Origin: Cohnella faecalis
GTDB taxonomy: Bacteria > Bacillota > Bacilli > Paenibacillales > Paenibacillaceae
Assembly (NCBI RefSeq): GCF_003570905.1
Contig: NZ_QXJM01000052.1
Span: 1-64,000 of the forward strand
Direction: 5' to 3'
Length of the DNA: 64,000 bases
Part shown: positions 35,597 to 49,113 of the stretch, piece by piece
Numbering within the stretch: the first letter of the stretch is position 1
Layout of the letters: every line of letters begins with the position of its first letter
Translations under genes and position numbers: made by a program
Notes under the pieces: generated by a model
The model's database searches: none
Told to the model about the DNA's origin: nothing
Seen by the model: only the letters and a program-made list of their open reading frames with translations

Positions 35597-35765
35597 TCTA
35601 ACGGAATAGTTGTCGACACGGAATGACAATTGGGCAATTCTTTCTCTTGATTTCAGAGGCGGAAGTCCCGTATGCGGTTGACGTTTCACGTCGCAAAGAG
35701 GCATAATGAAAGGAATACCTCATGGGAAGTTCACGGCGGGAGGCGCCGACGGAAAGGAAACAGGC

Positions 35766-37966
35766 ATGGGCATGGAGCAGTTGCTCGAGAAGGCTTCCAC
35801 CTATATGAAAGAGCCGGATTTGAACCGCGTTCGGATCGCCTATGAATATGCGGAGGAAGCGCATAGGGGGCAGACGAGGAAGTCCGGCGAACCTTATATT
35901 TTGCATCCGGTAGCCGTTGCCGATATTTTGGTGAACATGCAGATGGATGTCATCACCGTAGAAGCGGCGCTGCTGCACGACGTCGTCGAGGATACGAAAG
36001 TAACGCTCGATGATCTTCGCGATAGATTCGGCGATACGCTGGCCGGACTCGTGGACGGATTGACCAAGCTGGAAAGAATTCAATTCCGCTCCAAGGAAGA
36101 ACAGCAGAACGAGAACTATCGCAAAATGTTCGTGGCGATGGCCAACGACATTCGCGTTATTCTGATCAAGCTGGCGGACCGCCTGCACAATATGCGGACG
36201 CTTAAGTTCCAATCCGAGGAGAGCCAGCGGCGAATCGCGCACGAGACGCTCGAAATCTATTGCCCGATCGCCCACCGCCTCGGGATGAGCGCGATCAAGT
36301 GGGAGATGGAGGACATCGCTCTCCGCTTTCTCAATCCGCAGCAATATTATCGCGTCGCCCACCTAATGAAGAAGAAGCGGGCCGAACGCGAGCAGTATAT
36401 TTCCGAGCTGATCGGCAAAATTCGCGAGAAGCTCGAAGAGATGGGCATTCAAGGCGATATTAGCGGGCGCCCTAAGCATATTTACAGCATTTTCAAAAAG
36501 ATGACGACGAAGAACAAGCAGTTCAACGAAATTTACGATCTTCTGGCGATTCGCATATTGGTCGAGAACGTGAAGGATTGCTACGCGACGCTCGGCATTA
36601 TTCATACGCTTTGGAAGCCGATGCCCGGCCGCTTCAAGGATTATATCGCTATGCCGAAGGCGAATATGTACCAGTCGCTCCATACGACGATCGTAGGACC
36701 TACGGGCGAACCGACGGAGGTGCAAATCCGCACCTGGGATATGCACCGGACGAGCGAGTACGGGATCGCGGCTCACTGGTCCTACAAAGACGGCAATTCG
36801 GGGGAGTCACTCCGGGTACGTTCGGCGACAAAATGAACTGGTTCCGCGAAATTATCGAGCTTCAGCACGAAACCCGCGATGCGGCCGAGTTCATGGAATC
36901 GGTCAAAATGGATTTTTTCACCGACCTCGTCTTCGTGTTCACGCCAAAAGGCGAAGTGTTCGAATTGCCTTCGGGAGCGGTTCCGCTCGATTTTGCTTAT
37001 CGCATTCATACCGAGGTCGGCAACCGGACGATCGGCGCGAAGGTGAACGGTCGGATCGTGCCGCTCGACCACAAGCTTAAGACGGGCGACATCGTCGAAA
37101 TATTGACGTCCAAGCATTCTTACGGTCCGAGTCAGGACTGGCTTAAGGTTGCCCAGTCCTCGCATGCCCGCGCCAAAATCAAGCAATGGTTCAAAAAGGA
37201 AAAGCGCGAGGAGAACGTCGAGAAAGGCCGCGACCTTCTGGAAAGAGAGCTGAAGCGGATCGGTCTGGAGCCTCACGAGTGGATGTCGGACGACAAGCTT
37301 CTGGAAGCGGCCAAAAAATTCACGTTCAACGATCTTGAAGATATGATGTCGGCGATCGGCTTCGGCGGCATTACGGCGGCGCAAGTGTGCACGAAGCTGA
37401 CGGAGAAGCTCCGCAAGGAGGCCGAGGAAGCTCAGCAAATCCAGCTTACGAGCGCCGTCAAAGAAATGAAGCAGTCCGCCGCCGCTCAAGCGGCTGCCGA
37501 GCGCAAGCGCCCGACTCACGGCGTCAGCGTCAAAGGCGTGGACAATCTGTTAGTCAGGTTCGCTCGCTGCTGCAATCCGGTGCCGGGCGACGACATTATC
37601 GGATATATTACTCGCGGGCGCGGCGTGTCGGTTCACCGGACGGATTGCGCGAACATACCGACCGCATCGGACGGCGAGGAAGCTGCGCGCGTCATCGAGG
37701 TCGATTGGGAAAACGCGGTGGAAGCGAATTACAGCGTGGAAATTGAAATTCTCGGCCATAACCGGAACGGGCTTCTGAACGAAGTGCTGGCGACGGTATC
37801 GGAGAGCAAAACGAACATTTCGGCCGTCTCCGGACGGTCCGACAAAAACAAGATGGCGATCATCCATATGACCATTCTTATCCGCAACAAAGACCATTTG
37901 CATTCGGTCGTGGAGAAAATCAAGCGGGTTAAGGACATTTTTTCCGTTCAGCGGATGATGCAATAG
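35766..37966 (+). pseudogene. relA: Bifunctional (p)ppGpp synthetase/hydrolase RelA, one apparent frameshift
   Basis: Rel/RSH stringent-response enzyme. The hydrolase HD domain (HPVAVADILVNMQMD, AALLHDVVEDT) and synthetase domain (GRPKHIYSIFKKM, AMPKANMYQSLHTTIVGP) are in the first frame, which stops at 36836. The TGS domain (VFVFTPKGEVFELPSGAVPL), the zinc-finger RCCNPVPGDDIIGYITRGRG and the ACT domain are in the second. Adding one G to the GGGGG at 36801-36805 joins them (GNSGGVTPGTFGDKMNWFRE) and yields a 733-residue RSH protein. If the shift were real, a 356-residue protein with both catalytic domains but no regulatory half would result. The ATG at 35766 is preferred; the frame is open from 35706. 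Confidence 0.92.
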
Positions 37967-38873: not shown

Positions 38874-40436
38874 TTACGGATGCGGCTCGCCAACGATGCG
38901 ATAGAGCTTCCAACGGTCGTCAATATCGAACACAAGCTTTGCCCAATCGGCGTTACCCTCGTACAGCAAAGGGTATTTGACGTGAACGGCGTTAAGAGCG
39001 GAGAGCCCTTCCGGCTTCGGAACCAATAAATATTCGACATGGAATTTCAACGGTTGATCCAGCACGGCTTTGAAATCGCGGTCTGTCGTATTCACGAAAC
39101 GGCGGGGATTCCGGCTGTTCAGGATAATCTCGAAAGCGTTGAAGGAATCTGCAATAACCAAGGCGTTCGGATCGCTGTCGAAAATTTCACGATCGAGCTT
39201 TTGCGATATTTTCCGGTTCAGCAGCGTCTTTTGATAAGTTGCGCTGTCGCGATAATGGATAACCGAATATTCCTCGGGCGACAGAGAGGCGTTGTTCATG
39301 ACGGGAACGACCAGAACGGCGGAAACGGCTAGTGCCGCGAGCATGCTTGGCTTCAGAGCCCGGGCCATGCTCGGCTGGGCGTTCGAAGATAATTCGTAGG
39401 GAAGCCAGGCGATCGTTATGAGCAGCGGATAATAGAAAAACCGGAGCCAGCCGAAGGACAGGCCGCCGTACAGCATATACCATTGAAAAAGAGGGATGGA
39501 AAACGTTAAAACGGTGAATACGAGAAAATCCCAGCGAAGCGCCGTCCGCGAAAGCAAACGAAACAGGAGGAGGACGGCATAAGGAATCGCAAATACGGCA
39601 ATTCTTTTGCATACGAATTTGAAGCTGGCCTCAGGATTTCCGATTAGGACCGACATAACGGGGTTGTCGGCCAGAAATTCCGATTGTCCCGCATTGGAAT
39701 ATGAAGAATGCAAAAAGTAAAGAGCATCTCCCATAATCGTGTAATTAAGCACTAGCCAAACGGTTACCGTAAAGAGGACAGGCAGCAATAACATAAGCAG
39801 AGTGCTTTCGATTTTTGCGAATACTGATTTTTTGGCGAGCATGTACCAGAAGGTCGCAAAAACGATTGCAGCGCTGAACGGTATAGCTTCGTAACGGGTA
39901 AGGAAGGCCAAGCTGAGCATGAGGGATACCATCGTAAGCGAATGGACGCTGTTATCGCGAATCCATTGCGTCCAGTGAATGACGGAGACAAGGAGAAAAA
40001 AACCGAATAACGCTTCGCTCATGCCGTTGGCCCCGTACCAGAACTGGAAGGGATTCAAAACGAAGAGCAGCGTGCAGGCGATCCCGAAAAACGTCGCGGA
40101 GCCCAGATTTTTATAGAAGGCTTGCAAGAGGACAACCGCCGTCAATCCGGCGAACGCGGAAGTTATAATGACGCTTGAAAGCCCGGCGGAAGATAAAGTC
40201 GGCAGCCACGGTTGGAACAGCAAAACGGGCATTGCCAAAAAGCTCGGCAGAGGGTTCCAAATAAATCCGACAGCGGCGAGATGCGGATCGCGGCTGTAGA
40301 GCACGTAGAAGGCGTTCGCAACCCTGCTGATTGCGTCTCCATTAATATAGGGAAGATGCACGGCAACATAATATCCGAAGATAACTTCCAAGATGAATAT
40401 GAATGCGAACACGACCGTATATGTTTTTTTGGTCAT
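38874..40436 (-). CDS. GT39/PMT-like membrane glycosyltransferase
   Basis: 520 residues with about ten membrane helices (TVVFAFIFILEVIFGYYVAV, FFGIACTLLFVLNPFQFWYG, LLMLLLPVLFTVTVWLVLNY). An early acidic loop (LPYINGDAISRVANAFYVLY) sits where GT-C enzymes carry their catalytic Asp. It ends in a soluble domain (LVIADSFNAFEIILNSRNP). It should use a polyprenyl-phosphate sugar, plausibly made by the adjacent GT2-GtrA protein. The ATG at 40436 follows ggtgattgaa; the frame extends to 40526 but overlaps the preceding gene. Last gene of the seven-gene operon. Confidence 0.7.
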   Translation of the reverse strand: MTKKTYTVVFAFIFILEVIFGYYVAVHLPYINGDAISRVANAFYVLYSRDPHLAAVGFIWNPLPSFLAMPVLLFQPWLPTLSSAGLSSVIITSAFAGLTAVVLLQAFYKNLGSATFFGIACTLLFVLNPFQFWYGANGMSEALFGFFLLVSVIHWTQWIRDNSVHSLTMVSLMLSLAFLTRYEAIPFSAAIVFATFWYMLAKKSVFAKIESTLLMLLLPVLFTVTVWLVLNYTIMGDALYFLHSSYSNAGQSEFLADNPVMSVLIGNPEASFKFVCKRIAVFAIPYAVLLLFRLLSRTALRWDFLVFTVLTFSIPLFQWYMLYGGLSFGWLRFFYYPLLITIAWLPYELSSNAQPSMARALKPSMLAALAVSAVLVVPVMNNASLSPEEYSVIHYRDSATYQKTLLNRKISQKLDREIFDSDPNALVIADSFNAFEIILNSRNPRRFVNTTDRDFKAVLDQPLKFHVEYLLVPKPEGLSALNAVHVKYPLLYEGNADWAKLVFDIDDRWKLYRIVGEPHP

Positions 40437-40465
40437 TTCAATCACCAGCTTTTTCGTTTCATCCG

Positions 40466-41575
40466 TTAGAGGGGCGGGTCTTTGGAAATCGGAGACAGAA
40501 TCGCCGGCAGTTTCTTGAACGTCCAAACGTTATTCAACGCGAAGTTGGAGCCGGTCGAGACAAGTATGCCTATTAAGCCGGCTACCAAGTAATGGACGCC
40601 GAACCAGGAATGAAAGCAGGTCACAATGAAGCTCGACAAGCATAGTCCGCTTAGGCTTACCAACGAAAACTTGAAAATACGATACCAAAGCTTGTCGCTC
40701 TTGCTATCCTTCCACGTTAACAGGTTGTTCCAGGTGAAGTTGTTGAAGGTGGCGACGATCGTTGCTCCGGCAAAAGAAAATCCGATGGGAACGCCGAGGT
40801 GAACAAGCAGCACATAGACTAGCGTATTAACCGCTACCCCGCTGAGCCCTACGGCACAAAATATCCAAAACCGCATATCCGATTCGCTGCTTCTTAGCAG
40901 CCTGCCCAGATGACGAATATAGTTCCATTGCTCCTTCAAGTTGAGCTTGGAGCTGCCGAGGTCTCTTGAGTGGAAGGAGTACGGAATTTCCCTGACGTTC
41001 GAATAATCGGAGCGTACCAACAGCTCCAGCAATATTTTCCAACCGATCGGCTGAAGGGGCCGACTGAAGGCGACGTCGCGGCGCACGGCGAAATAGCCGC
41101 TGGTCGGATCGGTAACCTTCCATACTTTGCGTATAAGCAAACGGGCCATCATCCGAGCCGTCCACGAGACGAGTCGTCTCCATGCGTTAAGGCCGCCGTC
41201 GCTGCCTCCCGGAATGAATCTGGAAGGAACGATGACTTCGGACCGTTCCGATCGGATCTCCTCGATGAGGGCGGGCAAGCTTTCCGGAGGATGCTGCAGG
41301 TCGGCGTCCATGACGATAAACCAATCGCCCTTGGCCATCCGACAGCCTTCCAAGATGGCGGAGCTTAAGCCTCCTCCGTTCTCGCGATGCAAATATCGAA
41401 CGAACGAAAATTGCCGACTCATCCGATCCAATCTTTCGGGAGTATCGTCGGAGCTGTCGTCCACGAATACGATCTCATAGGTGACGTCGCCAGGAACGGC
41501 GCGCAAAATCCGATTCGTCAATATTTCCACGTTAGCTCCCTCATTGCGGCAGGGAACGATTATGCTAATTTCCAT
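40466..41575 (-). CDS. GT2 polyprenyl-phosphate glycosyltransferase with GtrA-like membrane domain
   Basis: 369 residues. The GT-A fold has EISIIVPCRNEGANVEILTN, VFVDDSSDDTPERL, GDWFIVMDADLQHPPESLP and DPTSGYFAVRRDVA, as in dolichol-phosphate mannose synthases. The C-terminal third has four helices of the GtrA type (FWIFCAVGLSGVAVNTLVYV, FSFAGATIVATFNNFTWNNL). It likely makes and flips a polyprenyl-phosphate hexose, for example mannose, given the guanylyltransferase at the head of the operon. The ATG at 41575 starts exactly at the fold. Confidence 0.85.
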   Translation of the reverse strand: MEISIIVPCRNEGANVEILTNRILRAVPGDVTYEIVFVDDSSDDTPERLDRMSRQFSFVRYLHRENGGGLSSAILEGCRMAKGDWFIVMDADLQHPPESLPALIEEIRSERSEVIVPSRFIPGGSDGGLNAWRRLVSWTARMMARLLIRKVWKVTDPTSGYFAVRRDVAFSRPLQPIGWKILLELLVRSDYSNVREIPYSFHSRDLGSSKLNLKEQWNYIRHLGRLLRSSESDMRFWIFCAVGLSGVAVNTLVYVLLVHLGVPIGFSFAGATIVATFNNFTWNNLLTWKDSKSDKLWYRIFKFSLVSLSGLCLSSFIVTCFHSWFGVHYLVAGLIGILVSTGSNFALNNVWTFKKLPAILSPISKDPPL

Positions 41576-41618
41576 AATGACCAGTCCTTGCTTAAGAAGT
41601 ATGGAATGCCGGTCGCGA

Positions 41619-44044
41619 CTACAGGTTGGCCTGCTCGCTTTTCGTCTTTTCGTACGGCATCGCCGTCGATCCGTGCGGTTCGTCCGATTGATCGAGTCCA
41701 TGCGTCGTTTTTTCCCAGTAGAAGGGCTTCGTAATCAATTGCCAAGCCGCTTTGTAAGCGGAGATGCTCATCATGATCCAATAAAAGGGCGTTAGCAGGG
41801 CATATTTGACGAGCCTGTGGGAGATGTACGGCTGCGATTTTTTCTCCATATCGTTAATGACCCAATAGACGCCGGCGATATTGCTGTATACGAAAAAGAA
41901 ATTGGCGACGAACAGTTCGAGTGCAGCCAGATAATAGATGATGCCGGGAAACAGCTGCGGAATAAAGTCGAATTTCCAGCCGAACCAGAGCAAAACCATG
42001 AGCCAGTAGACCGGATTCAGCAAAGGAATGACAGGGGTAGCCAGCACCATGACCTGGAATCCGAAAAAGCCTTTGGCGCCGATGTCTTTCCACAGCTGAA
42101 TCGGATTGCGCATATGGACAAGCCATGTTTGCATATAGCCTTTGATCCATCGCGAGCGTTGGCGGATCCAGTTGCCGAAGCGGCTGTTCGCCTCTTCCCA
42201 AGTCCGGGAATCGACGATGGCCGTTTTGTGTCCCGCTTTGTACAAGCGAATGCCCAAATCGGCATCTTCCGTTACGTTGTAAGGATCCCAGGCGTTCAGC
42301 TCTTTCAACACGGATGTCTTGAAGTGATTGGACGTGCCTCCGAGAGGGATGGGGATATCCAGCCTCATAATGCCGGGAAGCAGCAGTTCGAACCACATGC
42401 TGTATTCCTGGGTAAACCAGCGGGTCAGCAAATTTTGCTCGCTGTTGAAATAATTCAGCTTCGCCTGCACGCAAGCGGTGCTCTCCGAGCAGCTTTCGAA
42501 CGTCAAATGCACTTTTTTTAGCTGATCAGGGTCCGGCCGGTCTTCCGCATCATAGATGACGGTATATTTCCCCGCGCGCGGATCAAACCGAAGTTGCATG
42601 CCTTTGGTTTCGTTTTCGGCAAGCTGTCAGGGACGACAAGCACGGTGTAATAAGAAGGAAGCTTCATTTTCTGGATAAGCTCCTGAGCCTCGATGTCGTC
42701 CGTTTCGATCAATAGCCGAACGTCCAGCTTCGCTTTCGGGTAATCGAGTTTTTCCAGGTTCCGAATAAGCTGAGGGATAACTCCGCTTTCTTTATACATA
42801 GGGACGAGTATCGTATAGGGCGGCAAATCGCGCTCGTCTATGCTTTTGATTTGTTCGTCGGTGAAGCGGTACTGCGCGCCGCTGCGCGATCCGTACATGA
42901 TGATCATGAATTTGAACAAGGTCATGAAGAAATAAAAGATTTGAACAAGTACGTTGACCAAGACGATCGTCGCAAAAAAGTTCCAGAACAAACCGCCGAC
43001 GAATAGAGCGACGGTTAATGCGAGCGACAAAATCTGCGGCTTCGTAAAAGTGGTGCTGGCCGAGTTGTGCGGCTGCTCGATCGCGAGCTTGGAAGTGCTC
43101 TCTTCGAGCATCTCGTCGCCGTATACCTCCGACCAGAACAGCTCCATCTCGTTCTTGGTTGCGAGAACTTGTTCGATCGGCATTTCGAGCCTATGCTCCA
43201 GCACGGATATGATTTCGTCGGACAGCGGTTCATTGACGGCTACAAGCAAACGGTTCTCGTATTGATGGATAATGACAGCGCCGTATTCTCGGGCAATCGG
43301 CTCCGGCAGCTTCATATCCGGATCGAAGCTGATTTCGTTGCCGATGCGTCCGATGTTGTTCTGGTTAGCGATAGCGCGGTAAAGCTGCTCGGGCTCAAGA
43401 AACTGAAGCGACAGCAGCACGTCTCCGAGCATCCCGCCGCTTTTGCGTTGGAAGGACAATGCTTTTTCCAATTGATCCTTGGTCAGATAACCTAATTGAA
43501 GGAGTACGTCGCCCAATCTGCCCTTGTTGGGCTGGTTGCTGATGTAAGGCAGCAGTTGCTCGGCCGATACGTACCCGAGATCGATTAGAATGTCTCCGAG
43601 ACGTCCTCCCGTCTCCTCTTGCTTAGCCATCGCCTCTTCCAATTGCTCGACAGAGATGATTCGGTCCCGAATGAGCAGCTCACCCATTTTGGCGCGAGGC
43701 TTCGCATTAACCGGAGCTTCTTTGGGCGGAAGAGGCGCTTCTCGTTGAGTGACCGTTTCGGATGGGGGCAATTCCGCTGCCGCCGCTGCGGAATTGTCCG
43801 GTCGAAGCGGCAGCCAATCGCGGCCTTCTCCTTGCTTGAGATAATAGATTCGTGTCTGCGCGGCCAACAACCGGCGCTTGAGCTCTTCCGTTTCCCATTC
43901 TTGACGAAGAAGCAGCGCCGCGTGCATGGCTCGCTGCCGTCGCAGCTCGTTTTTCCTCTCCTCGAGCACCCACTGTTCCCATCGAACGCTTTCCCGAGCG
44001 GATCGCGGCCATAAGCTTCGAATTCCGTCCTTCAGCAGGCTCAC
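41619..44044 (-). pseudogene. Processive GT2 glycosyltransferase with N-terminal MshEN repeats, one apparent frameshift
   Basis: The GTG start overlaps the previous gene (GTGA). Residues 1-75 are Arg/Glu-rich coiled coil. Residues about 115-330 carry MshEN/GspE-N repeats (KMGELLIRDRIISVEQLEEA, GRLGDILIDLGYVSAEQL, GRLGDVLLQLGYLTKDQLEK, GMLGDVLLSLQFLEPEQL), a fold that binds c-di-GMP in MshE and NfrB. Two helices come next, then a BcsA-like catalytic domain with ETDD, VIYDAEDRPDPDQL, NVTEDADLGIRLY and RQRSRWIKGYMQTW, and about four C-terminal helices. No PilZ domain follows. The frame breaks near 42567-42573 (TTT or CCCC on the plus strand); one added base gives 808 residues. Inferred role: c-di-GMP-controlled polysaccharide synthase. 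Confidence 0.85.
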
Positions 44045-44289
44045 CTTGCACCCCAGCTTTCCAGAAGCCGACGTTCCTCGGAGAGAGCTTCCTCCAGCTG
44101 CAGGGACAGTCGATCGCCGAAAATTCGCTTTTGCTCTTGCAGCTCAAGGAAAGCGGTCTGCTCCTGTTTCATGACGGACTCCACGAGATGAATGCGAGCT
44201 CGTATCGCATCGATTTGACGGTTGGCGGCTTCGGGCTTGAACCAGGCGGATGAACGGCTTTTTTTTCGGCTTGACCGCGGTTTTCTCAT
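44041..44289 (-). CDS. Small coiled-coil protein of the polysaccharide operon
   Basis: 82 residues: a very basic N-terminus (MRKPRSSRKKSRSS) and then a heptad-rich helix (IDAIRARIHLVESVMKQEQT, LQLEEALSEERRLLESW). The ATG at 44289 has an excellent agggaggg ribosome site; an upstream in-frame ATG at 44316 lacks one. No family is recognised. Tight coupling to the MshEN-glycosyltransferase, whose own N-terminus is also coiled coil, suggests it contacts that enzyme. Confidence 0.65.
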   Translation of the reverse strand: MRKPRSSRKKSRSSAWFKPEAANRQIDAIRARIHLVESVMKQEQTAFLELQEQKRIFGDRLSLQLEEALSEERRLLESWGAR

Positions 44290-44334
44290 TGGATGTACCC
44301 TCCCTCTGAACGGCATTGGCGGGTTAGCCGGTCA

Positions 44335-46504
44335 TTAATCTAGCTTGCCTTTGCGTTTGCGAAGTACGACGAACAGGGCGGCTAAAGAGACGACTACTGC
44401 CACGAACACTCCGGCAAAAACATAGCGGCTGTAGGGCAGCGGACGATTGACTGCGGGAGGGTCGACGATTACCGGGCACTAGGCTTCCTGGCGTCGATCG
44501 TATCGTTGAAGGAATACACTTGCTCGCGTTCGTCAATGACGACCAATCGGCCTCTTATTTGGTTGCTTTTTTCGACGTCCGTCCATATTTTTCCCATCGA
44601 CAGAAGACGATTCCGATCCGGAGCGACGAGCAAAAGCACGCTTCTGTCCGGATTAAGCGGGGAAGACGTCAACTGCAGGATCGTCGATTTTTTCGTTAGC
44701 TCCGCTAATATTTCGGCCTTGTCGGAGATGGATTGAACGGCATCCGGGGAAAAGATGACGTAGCTGTTGTCGTAGCCATTCAAGAAATCGGGCAGTTCCT
44801 TGGAAGAGCCGACAAAAATCACGTTGCGGTCCTTCAGCTTGTCCTGAAGCTGGCCGGACGCGATGTCGGCCAATTGAAAGTCCGATCGATCGGTTATGAC
44901 CGTATCCATCCTATTGATCAAGGAGATTGCGGAGCTTAGCTCCTCCGAGCCGCGATTGTTCATTAGAATCGTCGTAGAATTCCATTCGTCGCCTGCAACG
45001 AATGGATAAGGGAGCGAATCCAAATTGTAAGTCAGCCTGTCGGACGGCGTAAAAGTAAGATAGGAAGACTTGTCGACGACGGCCCAATTGCCCAGCAGCG
45101 TATCCGAGCAGAACGAGGAGGCTGCTGCACTGGCGGTATTGTCCGAGCCGTTCACAAATTGGAAGCCGATTTCCACCGACAGCGTTCTATTCGTTCCGAT
45201 CACCGTTGGATCGAGCGGGACGTCCAAGGTGCCTCCGTCGCTTGTAGCCTTGCCGAGCTTAACACTTTGGACGGGAACTCCGTTCAGCTTGACCGTCATA
45301 ACCGATTTGTCGTATGAGATCGATTTGGAGTGCTTGTAGGATAGGTGGAGGAGCGCTCCGTTCGTTAAATCCCAGTTGTTCGGAATCGGATAATTAATGG
45401 ACGAAGCTCCTTGCAGCACTTCAGCGGTTACGAGATTCCCATAACCGAGCTGCTCCAAAGTCAACGCCTTGGAATTGTCCGAAGCCGCGTTGGAATCAGA
45501 CGAAGCGACGTTTCCGGTCAGAACTTCCGGGATGACCGAATAACTCCCTCGCAGCTGCGCGTACAGCGTGTCTGTCGTTAAAATAGTTGCGGCGTTCGCA
45601 AGCTGTTTGCCTGTTCCGCTTACGAGCATCATCGTATTTTTGGCATTCCAGGGTGAAGGCGTTTCGCCGACAATCCTTTTGCCAGCTGGTCCGCATCCTT
45701 CGACTGGGCGAACGCTTCCGTCACGGATTTCCCTTTGGCCAGCCATCGGTCGGCTTTTCCTATCCAGACGATGGAATGGCTTCGAGCCAAAGCATCGGTT
45801 ACGTCCGATTCCACGTAGACGGGGACGTTCAGACGATGGTTAGGCGTTTGGAGCGCGAAAAATCGAGAGATCCGCGCTGCCGCTTTGAATTCATCCTGAT
45901 TGAATTTGTCCGGAAGAACGATGATTGCCCGAAGCGGGTCCGGAGATCCCCGTTCGATGAAAGGGCTAGGGTATTGGGTAAGATCCGCTTTTTCATAGCT
46001 TTGCTCCAAATGAAGAGCGACGGCGCTTTTCTTGTGGATGACGAGCCACGCGGCGCTGTTCTCCGGATCCTCGCAAATAACGTTGGAAACTTTCATTTTT
46101 CCCCAGAACGACAGCTTATGGAACCCGGGCTTCAAAGAGAGGTTCGAAAGATCGATGCTCCATAGCGTTTCCTTCTCGTTCTCTTTGCTCAAAGTAACGC
46201 TCCCTAGAGGAACGTCGTCCAGAAGGACGGTTAAGTTCGAATACTCGGGCAGCAGCGTCTCGGAATGGGAGTAATAAATATTGATCGAAGAGCCTTGTCG
46301 AGCCTCAAGGCCTTTGCCGATTTCAAAATAAGAATCTTGCCGCGCGTTTTCTCCTCGAAAAACCCGTTCTTCGGAAAAGATGCTGCGCGATTCGTTAGCA
46401 GACGAGCTCTGAGCGCCTGTTTCCGCATATGCCGCCGATTGCGAGGACAGGATGACGACGATCATCGCAACCATTAGGATCCAATTAGATGCCGTTCTTT
46501 TCAT
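44335..46504 (-). pseudogene. BcsB-like polysaccharide synthase partner, two apparent frameshifts
   Basis: A signal peptide (WILMVAMIVVILSSQSAAYA) leads into a large extracytoplasmic beta-rich protein of the BcsB type (SINIYYSHSETLLPEYSNLT, GFHKLSFWG, then after a shift YLTFTPSDRLTYNLDSLPYP, GSSKELPDFLNGYDNSYVIF). The C-terminal anchor YVFAGVFVAVVVSLAALFVV and RKRKGK tail lie in a third frame ending at 44335. One missing base at TTTT 45677-45680 and one near 44472-44476 explain both breaks; restored, it is 723 residues. BcsB binds and guides the nascent glycan beside the synthase. It precedes the coiled-coil and synthase genes. Confidence 0.8.
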
Positions 46505-46526
46505 GCAAGCGGTCCTTCCTTCATTC

Positions 46527-47390
46527 TTATGTTTCTTTCCATCTAAGCACGGACTGGGCGCTTTCCATCAGCGATCGGGCTTCAATGCCGTCCTCCGGGC
46601 ACTCCGAGACTCCAAACCTCAGCTGCAGCTTTACGTTCGCTTCTCTGCGCGGGCGATTCATCCGCATATCCAGAAACAAGCCCGCCAATTGCTGCTGCAT
46701 CTCGTCTACGACCGAGCGATCCTCTTCCGGAACGATGCAAGCCAGCATCGACTCTCCTACTTTTGCTTTCGCGCTTAGAGAATATTTCTGAAGCCATTCG
46801 GCCAGTTGGTTTAGCAGAATTGCGGCTTGGACTCCGCCGAAAATACGTTTGAATTCCTGCAGCCTTTCGACTTCGATCAGTACCAAGTGAAACTTCTGGC
46901 GGTCTCTGAGCGCCTTGATTACTTCTTCTTCCAGCTTATACAAGAAGGCAGGGCCGCTTAAGAAGCCGAAGCGTTCCTCGATCCCTAAAGCCTCATCTTG
47001 CTGGATACCCGGCGCGTCCAGAGGATCGAGAAAAGCGAATGCCGAGTCCTCTTGCGACGTAAATCGCTCTTTGTTCATTCCTCCAAGCAAGGAGACGGCA
47101 GGGAACGAGACGAGCCAGATCAGATCGTTCCAGTCGGCATCGACAGGCGAGGCGGCGAACCAAAGGCTATATGTAGCAAGCCCACCGTAAATCAAGACGA
47201 ACCCGAGTGAAACCAGAATCGTTTCGACGGTCGGGCGGAGCAGGCCATACAAGAAGAGCAGGCCGGAAGCGGCAAGCCAGTAGCCGTTATTCGGTTCGTC
47301 CGGAATCGTCATATAGACATACAGGGCAAGGAGCGTTAGAGCGGCCAATTGGACGAATAAGTTCGCGTAAAATCGTTCCGGGGCAGACAA
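46527..47390 (-). CDS. Membrane protein with degenerate GGDEF domain
   Basis: 287 residues. Three to four hydrophobic helices in the first 100 residues (LFVQLAALTLLALYVYM, ILVSLGFVLIYGGLATYSLW) are followed by a diguanylate-cyclase-like fold: LYKLEEEVIKALRDRQKFHL, VLIEVERLQEFKRIFGGVQA, and a late LRFGVSECPEDGIEARSLME typical of the GGDEF C-terminus. The active-site loop reads KVGESMLACIV where an active enzyme has a GG[DE]EF motif, so it should not make c-di-GMP. It is more likely a binding or scaffolding partner of the synthase. It lies 22 bases from the bcsB-like gene. Confidence 0.8.
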   Translation of the reverse strand: MSAPERFYANLFVQLAALTLLALYVYMTIPDEPNNGYWLAASGLLFLYGLLRPTVETILVSLGFVLIYGGLATYSLWFAASPVDADWNDLIWLVSFPAVSLLGGMNKERFTSQEDSAFAFLDPLDAPGIQQDEALGIEERFGFLSGPAFLYKLEEEVIKALRDRQKFHLVLIEVERLQEFKRIFGGVQAAILLNQLAEWLQKYSLSAKAKVGESMLACIVPEEDRSVVDEMQQQLAGLFLDMRMNRPRREANVKLQLRFGVSECPEDGIEARSLMESAQSVLRWKET

Positions 47391-47432
47391 AAGGGTTCAC
47401 TCCTATCGTAACTGTTGCTCTTATTTGGGATA

Positions 47433-48461
47433 TTAACCGTTCTCGGCTCGGCCGATACTCGACTTGAGAGATTCGACTTGATCGACCAAGGGTTTGATCA
47501 GATGGGAATAGTCTTTGTCGCTGATCAGTATACCGTCGGGGCCGGCGGCGATTACGGCGTTAGGGATACCGGCGACGATAATCGGCAAATGCAGCTGATT
47601 AATGACGTAAGTGCCGTCGCAATTGCCGTCCTTGATGACATTGCTGTCGTTATCGTGGTCGAGCAAATGAATCATTTCCGTCCAGGATCCGAGATCCGTC
47701 CATACGCCCTCGTAACGGATGCACGCGATGCGGGTCTCGGGCTCGACAACCATATAGTCGAAGCTTATTCTTGGAATCTGATGATAGGAGCCGGTTAATT
47801 CCGTGTAATCCCATGGTTGGTTAAGACGTTTGAGAGTTTCTTCCATATAGCGGAGCCGAAACGTAAATACGCCGCCGTTCCATAGAGCTCCCTGCTCGAT
47901 CAGCTCTGCCGCGGTTTCCGTTTCCGGTTTTTCGTGAAAACGGCTGACGTCGAAGGAAGAGGGATCGCCGGCAGGCGCAAAAGGAATAATGTAGCCGAAC
48001 TTTTCCGACGGATAGGTGGGCCGGATTCCAATCAGCCCGAGATTGGCGCGGTCTTGCCCGATCAATCGGTCCAAATCTTCAAGCTTGTCGTAAAAGTCGG
48101 GATCCACGTAGGCATCGACGGGCAGGACGGCAATCGTCTCGTCCGGGTTCACGCCAATGGACGAAAGATAGGAGCAGGCGACAGCTATTGCGGCGAACGT
48201 ATCGCGCTGCGACGGCTCAAGAATCAAATTCGCGTCCTCGCCTAATTGTTCGGCAAGGATCGAGTGATGATGGAGCCCTGCGGCGACGAAGACGTTGTCC
48301 GTGCCGAATTTGCCGGAGAGGATGTCGTGAGTCCGTTGGATCATGGAAATCGAATGGTTATATTTACTTTTAATTACTTTCAAAAATTGCTTTGGCAACA
48401 TTTCACTGGACAAGGGCCATAATCTTTTGCCGGCGCCCCCGGATAACAATACGATTTTCAT
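47433..48461 (-). CDS. manC: Mannose-1-phosphate guanylyltransferase-like nucleotidyltransferase
   Basis: 342 residues starting MKIVLLSGGAGKRLWPLSSE, the nucleotide-binding signature, with GRAxx-type lysine context MLPKQFLKVI. Further motifs are NLILEPSQRDTFAAIAVAC, FGYIIPF, RFHEKPETETAAELIEQG, LWNGGVFTFR and GVWTDLGSWTEM. It lacks the C-terminal isomerase domain of bifunctional ManC. It should make GDP-mannose or a related sugar nucleotide for the operon's transferases. First gene of the operon; a caaggggggt ribosome site precedes the ATG. Confidence 0.85.
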   Translation of the reverse strand: MKIVLLSGGAGKRLWPLSSEMLPKQFLKVIKSKYNHSISMIQRTHDILSGKFGTDNVFVAAGLHHHSILAEQLGEDANLILEPSQRDTFAAIAVACSYLSSIGVNPDETIAVLPVDAYVDPDFYDKLEDLDRLIGQDRANLGLIGIRPTYPSEKFGYIIPFAPAGDPSSFDVSRFHEKPETETAAELIEQGALWNGGVFTFRLRYMEETLKRLNQPWDYTELTGSYHQIPRISFDYMVVEPETRIACIRYEGVWTDLGSWTEMIHLLDHDNDSNVIKDGNCDGTYVINQLHLPIIVAGIPNAVIAAGPDGILISDKDYSHLIKPLVDQVESLKSSIGRAENG

Positions 48462-48799: not shown

Positions 48800-49113
48800 A
48801 ATTGTATCCTGCCCCTGATTCGATGACGGGAAAGAGTACTCCGGCTCCACGCCCCCAGAGAGGAAAGCCTTCGGCTGCAAGCTTTCCGGCGATGATCGGA
48901 CGAACGACCTCCCCGAGAACCTGACGCGAAAGGACGCGCGCGCCGTTCGGCGCAATGCGGCTCATTAGCGTATTGGCGTATACCGGGCGTTAACCGGATT
49001 AAGCTGCGGAAGCGCGTCGGCATGTCATGCGCCGTTTCCGAACACGGGTGGTACCGCGGGAGAATTAACGCTCTCGTCCCTGACGATGTTTGTTGGGGGC
49101 GGGAGCTTTTTTA
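48800..49113 (+). promoter_or_regulatory. T-box riboswitch leader of hisS-aspS
   Basis: The hallmark T-box sequence gggtggtaccgcggg is at 49046-49060, just before a terminator hairpin (gctctcgtccc ... gggcgggagc, 49070-49106, then a T run). The 5' part has an AGTA and an agagag typical of Stem I. Uncharged tRNA pairing with the T-box would favour read-through into hisS. I could not fix the specifier codon: a GAC (Asp) occurs after GAAC near 48900, but a His reading is not excluded. Confidence 0.85.

Follow-up and report, generated by a model that had tools for sequence, protein, structure and literature searches.

The window analysed here, a stretch of 64,000 nt from Cohnella faecalis (GCF_003570905.1, contig NZ_QXJM01000052.1, positions 1 to 64,000), carries a seven-gene operon running from 48461 to 38874 on the minus strand. 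In the list of open reading frames (ORFs), the gene number, order and coordinates agreed with those proposed in the first-pass annotation:

47433..48461, minus strand: ManC-like sugar-1-phosphate nucleotidyltransferase (GDP-mannose pyrophosphorylase-like), first gene; PF00483, 89.5 bits
46527..47390, minus strand: membrane protein whose GGDEF domain is degenerate (VGESM in place of GGDEF), without the RxxD I-site and with RPRRE; PF00990, 29.3 bits
44335..46504, minus strand: BcsB-like protein, frame-broken (N part 45629-46504, C part 44469-45746, last membrane segment to about 44335, an end read from the sequence); PF03170, 101.4 and 75.1 bits for the N and C parts
44041..44316, minus strand: small coiled-coil protein, an ORF overlapping the synthase start by 4 bases
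41619..44044, minus strand: MshEN-GT2 synthase (NF053729, PF05157, PF13632), frame-broken near 42570
40466..41574, minus strand: GT2-GtrA fusion, polyprenyl-phosphate-mannose-synthase-like; PF00535, 111.3 bits, and PF04138, 77.9 bits
38874..40526, minus strand: GT39-like polytopic glycosyltransferase of probable GT-C fold, last gene; PF13231, 19.2 bits, cut-off 26.1

Family profiles recovered the ManC-like NTP transferase, degenerate GGDEF, BcsB, MshEN-GT2 and GT2-GtrA domains as originally described; the match of the last gene, PMT_2/GT39-like, lay under the profile's cut-off. The nine operon ORFs scanned gave zero PilZ matches, as had been stated, and family profiles found among them no outer-membrane partner of the NfrA type. 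The small coiled-coil protein had no family match in the profile search, and homologues of 62-86 aa occupy the same place in four related loci (L032, L043, L044 and L187). For the GT2-GtrA fusion, the ATG at 41574 appears a likelier start than the 41701 of the ORF list.

The synthase is composed of a coiled coil, two MshEN_N units, an MshEN_C subdomain, membrane helices and a GT2 domain. NF053729, which describes the MshE-related c-di-GMP motif, matched two stretches of the protein (123.6 bits, cut-off 38), PF05157 recognized MshEN (38.7 bits vs. a cut-off of 23.1) and PF13632 scored 80.2 bits, in agreement with the N-terminal MshEN part previously suggested. Judged from these profiles, the protein is predicted to be a processive GT2 whose N-terminal part carries two c-di-GMP units of the MshEN type.

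Gene neighbourhoods and the ancestry of the BcsB-GGDEF pair

Co-occurrence of all seven genes in relatives would have made them a conserved unit. A four-gene core of pseudo-GGDEF, BcsB, coiled coil and MshEN-GT2 was indeed found together in five loci (the window and the four named above), but the full set was not conserved as such: L043 and L187 have the same order as the window, although DPMS and GtrA are two distinct genes in L043 and a GtrA gene could not be made out at the L187 locus, manC is placed between BcsB and the coiled coil in L044, and manC was not found at the L032 locus. BcsB next to MshEN-GT2 is rare, occurring in 4/197 family genomes and in G948 from a later, larger draw. Apart from the window, the family search gave 21 MshEN-GT2 loci, and at 18 of these the stretch taken contained no BcsB match; BcsB is dispensable to the MshEN-GT2 family, since 16/21 MshEN-GT2 genomes gave no PF03170 match at E 1e-5. 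The commonest neighbour of MshEN-GT2 in the loci examined was GT39, present within 3 kb at 19/21 other family loci, in 18 cases on the strand of the synthase, and beside it at 17/20 more distant ones, and the conserved unit is this pair. The manC gene lay within 4 kb in 18/21 family loci and in 4/20 distant loci, so that mannose is unsupported beyond the family. MshEN-GT2 itself was matched at E 1e-40 in 15/398 genomes of the class and 8/398 of the phylum, the window's own being counted in both.

In operons of the Yda/Pss type the GGDEF protein is described as a c-di-GMP receptor acting via its RxxD I-site (PMC5422440, PMC13274460, PMC4125290). The I-site columns of the window's pseudo-GGDEF were empty or changed in the alignment, with the position checked against WspR, a loss absent from the first-pass annotation. 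Within the family, RxxD was kept in 58/58 testable BcsB operons without MshEN and in 0/5 of those with an MshEN synthase, and RPRRE was identical in all five pseudo-GGDEF proteins of the latter. This sequence was not among the eight commonest variants listed at that place for the 39 Yda-type proteins compared. The five I-site-less proteins formed one clade in the tree, and the association between RxxD loss and MshEN therefore counts as one evolutionary event.

The window group was placed with the Yda-type operons L095/L104 in the GGDEF tree and in the BcsB tree (support 88/90, not starred), while the GT2 tree set the MshEN synthases apart from the Yda/Pss-type lineage with full support, on very long branches; the GT2 of the family's MshEN-less BcsB operons belongs to a short lineage of 416-441 aa. 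These phylogenies point to an operon of mosaic ancestry, with a BcsB-GGDEF pair of Yda/Pss type and a synthase from a wholly different GT2 lineage, and the earlier description as an Nfr/Bcs hybrid was abandoned.

The pseudo-GGDEF could still sense c-di-GMP at another surface, or another ligand, perhaps through the RPRRE region, and form a two-input gate together with MshEN. Functionless genes tend to disappear, as the many MshEN operons lacking a pseudo-GGDEF illustrate, and this one is retained, with an invariant RPRRE, in each of the five operons where it accompanies an MshEN synthase; nevertheless both RxxD and the GGDEF signature are gone and RPRRE is not known to correspond to a ligand site, which leaves such a gate unlikely. 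A hand-over of receptor function is a serious possibility, although not one we would call probable: a c-di-GMP-sensing MshEN synthase may have captured a Yda/Pss-type BcsB together with its I-site receptor, which lost the site and was kept, with the new RPRRE, as an obligatory non-sensing subunit.

The mannose-related genes

ManC scored 166 bits on TIGR01479, under the cut-off of 372.95, and matched the solved mannose-1-phosphate guanylyltransferase 2x5s by phmmer (E 1.2e-36 over residues 1-327). Against 5mlz, a solved dolichol monophosphate mannose synthase, the GT2-GtrA fusion gave E 5.1e-78, with a match that covered almost the entire length (residues 43-393 in the ORF as listed). The structure model of GT39 (pLDDT 80.2, pTM 0.82) had GT-C enzymes as its best fold matches, with DPY19, OST and ArnT among 12 Foldseek matches (E 1.3e-5 to 6.6e-4), and a GT-C fold is probable, with superpositions that are loose (TM 0.42-0.49, rmsd 11-16); a DxxSRVANAF motif was invariant in 11 rows. 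These matches support the lipid-linked mannose-type donor module first suspected, and ManC, GT2-GtrA and GT39 together look like a module for lipid-linked mannose decoration.

We infer from them both the identity of the sugar and the decoration of the operon's own polymer. Enzymes of the GT-C kind are described as decorating wall polymers in Gram-positives (PMC8035078) and decorate proteins elsewhere, and protein glycosyltransferases are among the fold matches of GT39, so the three enzymes might mannosylate a teichoic acid, a secondary cell-wall polymer or a secreted protein, being linked to the synthase by common expression only. This is doubtful in view of GT39 being the commonest neighbour of MshEN-GT2, both within the family and in distant loci. 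The operon's product is probably a surface sugar polymer decorated with mannose, and the linked module predicts a c-di-GMP-controlled, side-chain-mannosylated exopolysaccharide.

The MshEN repeats and the broken reading frames

The MshEN motif consists of two 24-residue motifs with Gly3, Leu17, Leu21 and Gln24, joined by a 5-residue linker. The synthase has motifs of this length, with the key residues and the linker, arranged as follows:

43619..43690, minus strand: repeat R1, residues 119-142, KMG...Q (repeat alignment)
43532..43603, minus strand: repeat R2, residues 148-171, last Gln in 8/23 rows only
43448..43519, minus strand: repeat R3, residues 176-199, c-di-GMP motif matched at key positions
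43361..43432, minus strand: repeat R4, residues 205-228, first Arg replaced by Met, Gly3 and Gln24 kept
43112..43324, minus strand: MshEN_C subdomain, residues 241-311, PF05157 profile positions 16-87

The binding residues on which a c-di-GMP sensor would depend proved conserved in repeats 3-4 and only in part in repeats 1-2, a unit that is degenerate in most relatives. Gly3 and Gln24 were found in 23/23 rows in both R3 and R4, and so was Leu21 of R3; R4 keeps Leu/Gly/Gln, with Ile at 21 in 20/23 rows, and its Arg1 is replaced in 22/23 (by a hydrophobic residue in 18, by Lys in 2). The full synthase model was poor (pLDDT 53), and the N-terminal MshEN part, when modelled, best matched c-di-GMP-bound PilF GSPII-B and MshE, in line with the profile matches to MshE 5htl (4.6e-15) and PilF 6f8l (1.7e-29). 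NF053729 was far above its cut-off in the window and close relatives, and reached 30.3 bits, under the cut-off of 38, in the distant relative L165. The genome carries 21 GGDEF-matching stretches, and the c-di-GMP signal is therefore probably available in the cell.

MshEN is able to lose c-di-GMP binding, as described for XpsE/GspE (PMC5013675), and the degenerate R1-R2, the missing Arg of R4 and the low score of L165 would suit a tandem acting as a structural or dimerisation module, with the synthase under transcriptional control or none. Such a reading is nonetheless improbable considering the invariant Gly3, Gln24 and Leu21 residues, and also because Lys or Leu at motif position 1 of PilF GSPII-B is reported to make c-di-GMP binding tighter, not weaker, and compatible with nanomolar affinity (PMC11731258). 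The conserved second unit thus suggests that MshEN binds c-di-GMP and that regulation passes through it.

Breaks in the synthase and BcsB frames had passed unmentioned in the first description of the locus. The synthase is split over two frames (42518-44044 and 41619-42599, with the change near 42570); the GT2 motifs DAED, TED and QRSRW are present in its C-terminal piece, as in the intact 794 aa homologue of L187, and the complete GT2 set previously claimed is thus distributed over two ORFs. According to tblastn of intact relatives, BcsB changes frame near 45700, and its C-terminal membrane segment lies in yet another frame. Sequencing indels are a likelier cause than decay because the 21 other MshEN-GT2 places found in the family search have open frames of 631-912 aa. 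That the operon is decaying in C. faecalis by real mutations would accord with two of its genes being broken, but is hard to credit when relA, just outside the operon, is likewise split, the remaining operon ORFs are open, the relatives' genes are intact and the assembly is 92.21% complete with 6.91% contamination.

Proposed mechanism and comparison with known systems

The operon probably encodes an exopolysaccharide machine gated by c-di-GMP via the synthase's own MshEN, in which a retired GGDEF receptor serves as a structural subunit. ManC would make a nucleotide-activated sugar, most likely GDP-mannose; c-di-GMP would bind mainly the R3-R4 unit, possibly also R1-R2, and activate the GT2 domain, which would polymerise and extrude the sugar backbone, while membrane-anchored BcsB, outside the membrane beside the exit, would guide the chain. 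GT2-GtrA may then make polyprenyl-phosphate-mannose and turn it outward, and GT39 may move the mannose onto the emerging chain. The membrane pseudo-GGDEF, its I-site lost, would remain as a subunit for assembly or coupling, a role perhaps shared with the coiled-coil protein.

In the literature found, MshEN was shown to act as the built-in control of a polysaccharide synthase in NfrB of Escherichia coli; here such control would extend to a family with scattered members across the window's phylum, in which the sensor lies at the opposite end, and the literature searched yielded no paper describing a Gram-positive polysaccharide synthase of the MshEN-GT2 kind. The contrast in RxxD between operons without and with MshEN offers a clean comparative test of c-di-GMP receptor swapping. 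Should the pseudo-GGDEF still be required, proteins of the YdaK/PssE type would have a structural job besides sensing, and the hand-over, if true, would be a natural experiment separating their structural from their sensing role.

NfrB (NfrBA-YbcH) is described as a c-di-GMP-activated exopolysaccharide synthase which, like the window synthase, joins a GT2 with DxD, TED and QxxRW to MshEN as a built-in c-di-GMP sensor, and the nfr cluster of Achromobacter xylosoxidans contains a BcsB homologue (PMC8669469, PMC8669472). In these accounts MshEN is C-terminal in NfrB and the operon has an outer-membrane partner, NfrA, whereas the window operon has none and its MshEN is doubled and precedes GT2 (residues 119-311), at the opposite end, as previously noted. 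Orthology with NfrB was rejected, the NfrB model giving 75.1 bits for the window N-part, a best score lying in MshEN, and 55.3 for the intact L043 synthase vs. a cut-off of 1170. PilF GSPII-B and MshE share the 24-residue repeat pairs, the 5-residue linker and the MshEN_C subdomain (PMC11731258, PMC5013675), with an ATPase as output there and a glycosyltransferase here. The BcsA-BcsB cellulose synthase similarly pairs GT2 with BcsB, with c-di-GMP control expected, and differs in its PilZ, which is missing from the window synthase pieces and from the L043 synthase; the CelA model scored far under its cut-off of 699.1 (29.3 and 21 bits for the window pieces and 45.5 for L043).

The nearest counterparts of the BcsB-GGDEF pair are ydaJKLMN of Bacillus subtilis and pssA-E of Listeria monocytogenes, where a BcsB-like protein and a membrane degenerate GGDEF stand beside GT2 in a monoderm, as here (PMC5422440, PMC13274460, PMC4125290); the link to YdaK, YdaN and Pss is through published descriptions, the sequences compared being those of Yda-type operons from the window's family. 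Because this pair is known in both species, the presence of BcsB in a monoderm has precedent. The window operon departs from them in lacking the RxxD that is described as essential to YdaK and as part of the c-di-GMP receptor PssE, in having a synthase of another GT2 lineage with MshEN, and in the addition of ManC, DPMS-GtrA and GT39. Multi-component transmembrane glycosylation systems of Gram-positives unite a polyprenyl-phosphate-sugar synthase, GtrA and a GT-C transferase in one operon (PMC8035078). The fusion supplies the first two and the Foldseek matches of GT39 agree with the third, its sequence matches lying below cut-off; in contrast to the teichoic acid genes of those descriptions, the partner of the module in the window is a c-di-GMP-type polysaccharide synthase.

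Operon layout and sequence integrity

The gene order and domains proposed in the first-pass annotation were confirmed by the ORF list and profile scans: seven ORFs encode, in order of transcription, a ManC-like protein, a GGDEF protein, BcsB, a small coiled-coil protein, the MshEN-GT2 synthase, a GT2-GtrA fusion and a GT39-like protein. The neighbours of the operon are plus-strand genes, relA-dtd at one end and hisS-aspS at the other; relA was identified by Pfam, and dtd, hisS and aspS are what we take the remaining three to be on recognition of their translations.

48461-38874, minus strand: seven-gene operon
35706-37966, plus strand: relA, as two ORFs, one with the HD and synthetase parts, the other with TGS and ACT
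48814-49084, plus strand: T-box leader of hisS (82.3 bits against a gathering score of 93, missed by a default Rfam scan)

No Rfam family reaches its gathering score in the window, c-di-GMP riboswitches included, and promoter-like (8 vs. 7.6 expected) and terminator-like sites (11 vs. 14.1 expected) were too close to expectation for any promoter or terminator to be claimed. In the window both the synthase and BcsB are frame-broken: intact relatives, aligned by tblastn, cover each in two frames, meeting near 42570 and near 45700, respectively, and the membrane tail of BcsB, read from the sequence, lies in yet another frame. The frame is open (631-912 aa) at the 21 other places in the family with an MshEN-GT2. 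The split of relA points to indel errors in the assembly (92.21% complete, 6.91% contamination, 65 contigs), and the breaks in the synthase and BcsB are probably sequencing indels as well.

Predicted perception of c-di-GMP: MshEN repeats and degenerate GGDEF protein

The synthase in the window carries four 24-residue repeats (R1-R4), paired through 5-residue linkers into two MshEN_N units, and after them one MshEN_C; R1-R4 are present in the synthase of locus L187 too. In an alignment of 23 rows, the window included and R1-R2 missing in one (L062), Gly3 and Gln24 are kept in all rows of both R3 and R4. R3 has Arg1 in 19/23 rows and Leu21 in 23/23, while R4 has Ile at position 21 in 20/23 and at position 1 a hydrophobic residue in 18 (Met 6, Leu 6, Val 3, Ile 3), otherwise Lys (2), Arg, Pro or Ser (1 each). 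Among the changes tested in V. cholerae MshE, that of the glycine hit hardest (PMC5013675), and in Thermus PilF GSPII-B Lys and Leu replace the first Arg, with binding about 83-fold tighter (PMC11731258). Given this conservation and the mutational precedent, the R3-R4 unit is predicted to bind c-di-GMP, whereas binding by R1-R2 is doubtful, with Gln24 of R2 present in 8/23 rows; the binding residues on which the first-pass reading of the repeats depended are kept in the second unit and, in part, in the first. An AlphaFold model of the whole L032 synthase (A3; pLDDT 53, pTM 0.26) is usable in its N-terminal part only, where two four-helix units and an alpha/beta unit are formed. The best fold matches of this part are c-di-GMP-bound PilF GSPII-B and MshE, in loose agreement (18 matches at E up to 0.001, TM 0.09-0.10 by query and 0.38-0.47 by target, rmsd 10-13).

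In ten proteins scanned, stretches matching NF053729, a MshE-related c-di-GMP motif model, ranged from one (L162, L175, L062) to three (L172). Three tandem MshEN_N units occur in two synthases, in L172 by its three NF053729 stretches and in L178 by eye, whose operons comprise manC, DPMS/GtrA (DPMS, a polyprenyl-P-mannose-synthase-like GT2), BcsB, the synthase and GT39, without GGDEF:

L172:8075-10309, minus strand: synthase with three MshEN_N units
L178:8493-10727, minus strand: synthase with three MshEN_N units

In distant GT2 and GT39 pairs (L165, L166, L168, L169, L174, L176, L179) an MshEN_C-like stretch lies, by eye, ahead of a weak MshEN_N, and L165 has two PF05157 stretches; c-di-GMP binding by these GT2s is doubtful.

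In Yda/Pss-type operons the c-di-GMP receptor is the degenerate GGDEF protein. In B. subtilis YdaK an RxxD motif (I-site) sits five residues before the dead GGDEF, and changing either residue abolished EPS production (PMC5422440); Listeria PssE has the RxxD motif as in YdaK and a c-di-GMP Kd of 0.79 uM (PMC4125290). For comparison, we used all 59 MshEN-less BcsB loci (L095-L134 and L188-L206) of the 62 BcsB-positive genomes of the family, of which G048 has two such loci and four have BcsB adjoining MshEN-GT2 instead (G000, G028, G082, G093). A GGDEF neighbour was found in 58 (L100, with neither GGDEF nor GT2 found in its 8-kb stretch, was dropped), and every one of the 58 has RxxD; the MshEN motif is absent from the GT2s beside them, as judged by motif pattern and length (only L101 was also profile-scanned). 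RxxD is missing from all five loci where BcsB, GGDEF and MshEN-GT2 occur together (the window, L032, L043, L044, L187), and a simple pattern search of the stretch agrees. The Fisher p of 1.4e-7 for RxxD against MshEN overstates the evidence, since the five pseudo-GGDEFs form one clade (100, starred, in a quick tree of 63 rows) and hence reflect one event. All five share RPRRE; aligned with WspR, the pseudo-GGDEF profile has a gap where the I-site residues of WspR lie. A phmmer search against solved structures returned nothing for the pseudo-GGDEF at E 0.01; a four-row profile did match. This type occurs in 4/394 family genomes (G000, G028, G082, G948) and in the named MAG of L032, two weaker search matches (G063, G048) being RxxD proteins. 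No GGDEF gene lies alongside four deeper-lineage MshEN and BcsB loci (L062, L172, L175, L178); in L175 an ORF some 6 kb off matches GGDEF. As to signal supply, GGDEF matches number 21 in the window's genome, a count that takes in the one within the operon and fragments of broken genes; PilZ matches fall at four places, of which three exceed the cut-off.

Neighbourhood and ancestry of the synthase

A full MshEN-GT2 (E below 1e-50) occurs at 22 places in 21/197 genomes of the family; in the other 59 matching genomes the match spans only some 140-170 residues within the MshEN part and presumably comes from PilB-type proteins. Of the 21 places besides the window (L043-L063), 19 have GT39 no more than 3 kb from the synthase (not L050 and L062; on the opposite strand in L051) and 18 have manC no more than 4 kb from it (not L050 and L059; about 7 kb off in L063), and both accompany it in ten named Paenibacillus loci (L033-L042, L037 being cut by the contig end). 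In a distant set of 20 loci from 19 genomes, drawn from class and phylum searches with G201 left out, GT39 is within 3 kb in 17, two of them on the opposite strand, L175 having a further one at only 22 bits, but just 4 of the 20 have manC at a distance of up to 4 kb; outside the window's family manC is no usual neighbour of the synthase. Of the 21 family genomes, just 4 have BcsB adjoining MshEN-GT2, and in 16 PF03170 matches nothing genome-wide at E 1e-5. These counts rule out the seven genes as a conserved unit.

Some loci depart from the common arrangement:

L032:13559-16885, plus strand: two consecutive GT39 genes beside the synthase
L045:12901-16220, plus strand: two consecutive GT39 genes beside the synthase
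L172:10338-14038, minus strand: two consecutive GT39 genes beside the synthase
L062:11061-12473, plus strand: protein of 470-476 aa after the synthase, in GT39's place
L175:6339-7769, plus strand: protein of 470-476 aa after the synthase, in GT39's place

The last two loci are deep-branching, and their protein has no Pfam match at E 0.01, the 22 bits in L175 being to a home-made GT39 profile. Genome G088 carries two MshEN-GT2 copies in unlike settings, L050 and L063, the former with neither GT39 nor manC in the stretch taken.

In a GT2 tree of 78 rows, hand-picked from the window and 92 loci (L034-L037, L039-L042, L054, L057, L100, L170, L171, L177 and L180 left out), a fully supported, very long branch parts the MshEN synthases from the GT2s of Yda-type operons, i.e., those with BcsB, a degenerate GGDEF and an MshEN-less GT2. 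Descent from a Yda GT2 that gained MshEN is ruled out by this distance, and it is the BcsB-GGDEF pair that would have moved instead. The pseudo-GGDEFs group with those of the Yda-type loci L095 and L104 (100, starred), and so do the accompanying BcsBs (90 in a quick tree; 88/90, not starred, in a careful one). Of these five BcsBs, four entered each tree: the quick one has the window's piece, and the careful one (27 rows, 19 of 39 Yda-type kept) has L187, the window row being omitted because its BcsB is broken. A single clade of all MshEN-operon BcsBs is disfavoured (p-AU 0.0105), with program warnings of long branches. The simplest reading of these trees is that an MshEN-GT2 operon captured a BcsB-GGDEF pair.

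Putative sugar supply and comparison with known systems

Residues 1-327 of ManC align with a mannose-1-phosphate guanylyltransferase of known structure (1.2e-36), although the protein scores under the TIGR01479 cut-off, and residues 43-393 of GT2-GtrA align with 5mlz, the structure of a dolichol monophosphate mannose synthase (5.1e-78). The sequence of GT39 gives only a weak profile match (19.2 bits, cut-off 26.1), and a sequence search with it (A4) against solved structures returned nothing at E 0.1. GT39 is modelled well, however (pLDDT 80.2), and its twelve fold matches at E up to 0.001 are all GT-C enzymes: complexes of oligosaccharyltransferase, DPY19, which uses Dol-P-Man, and ArnT (9n9j, presumably ArnT from its entry title), in loose superposition. 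The synthase falls far under the cellulose and PNAG model cut-offs, so that neither model assigns the backbone sugar.

By homology and analogy, the operon may be read as a c-di-GMP-controlled, synthase-dependent EPS system with a mannose decoration module, both regulation and chemistry being putative. As in NfrB, the c-di-GMP sensor would be built into the synthase, although MshEN stands at the opposite end in the window's protein; with the Yda/Pss systems the operon shares the BcsB-GGDEF pair, but its receptor is without the I-site.
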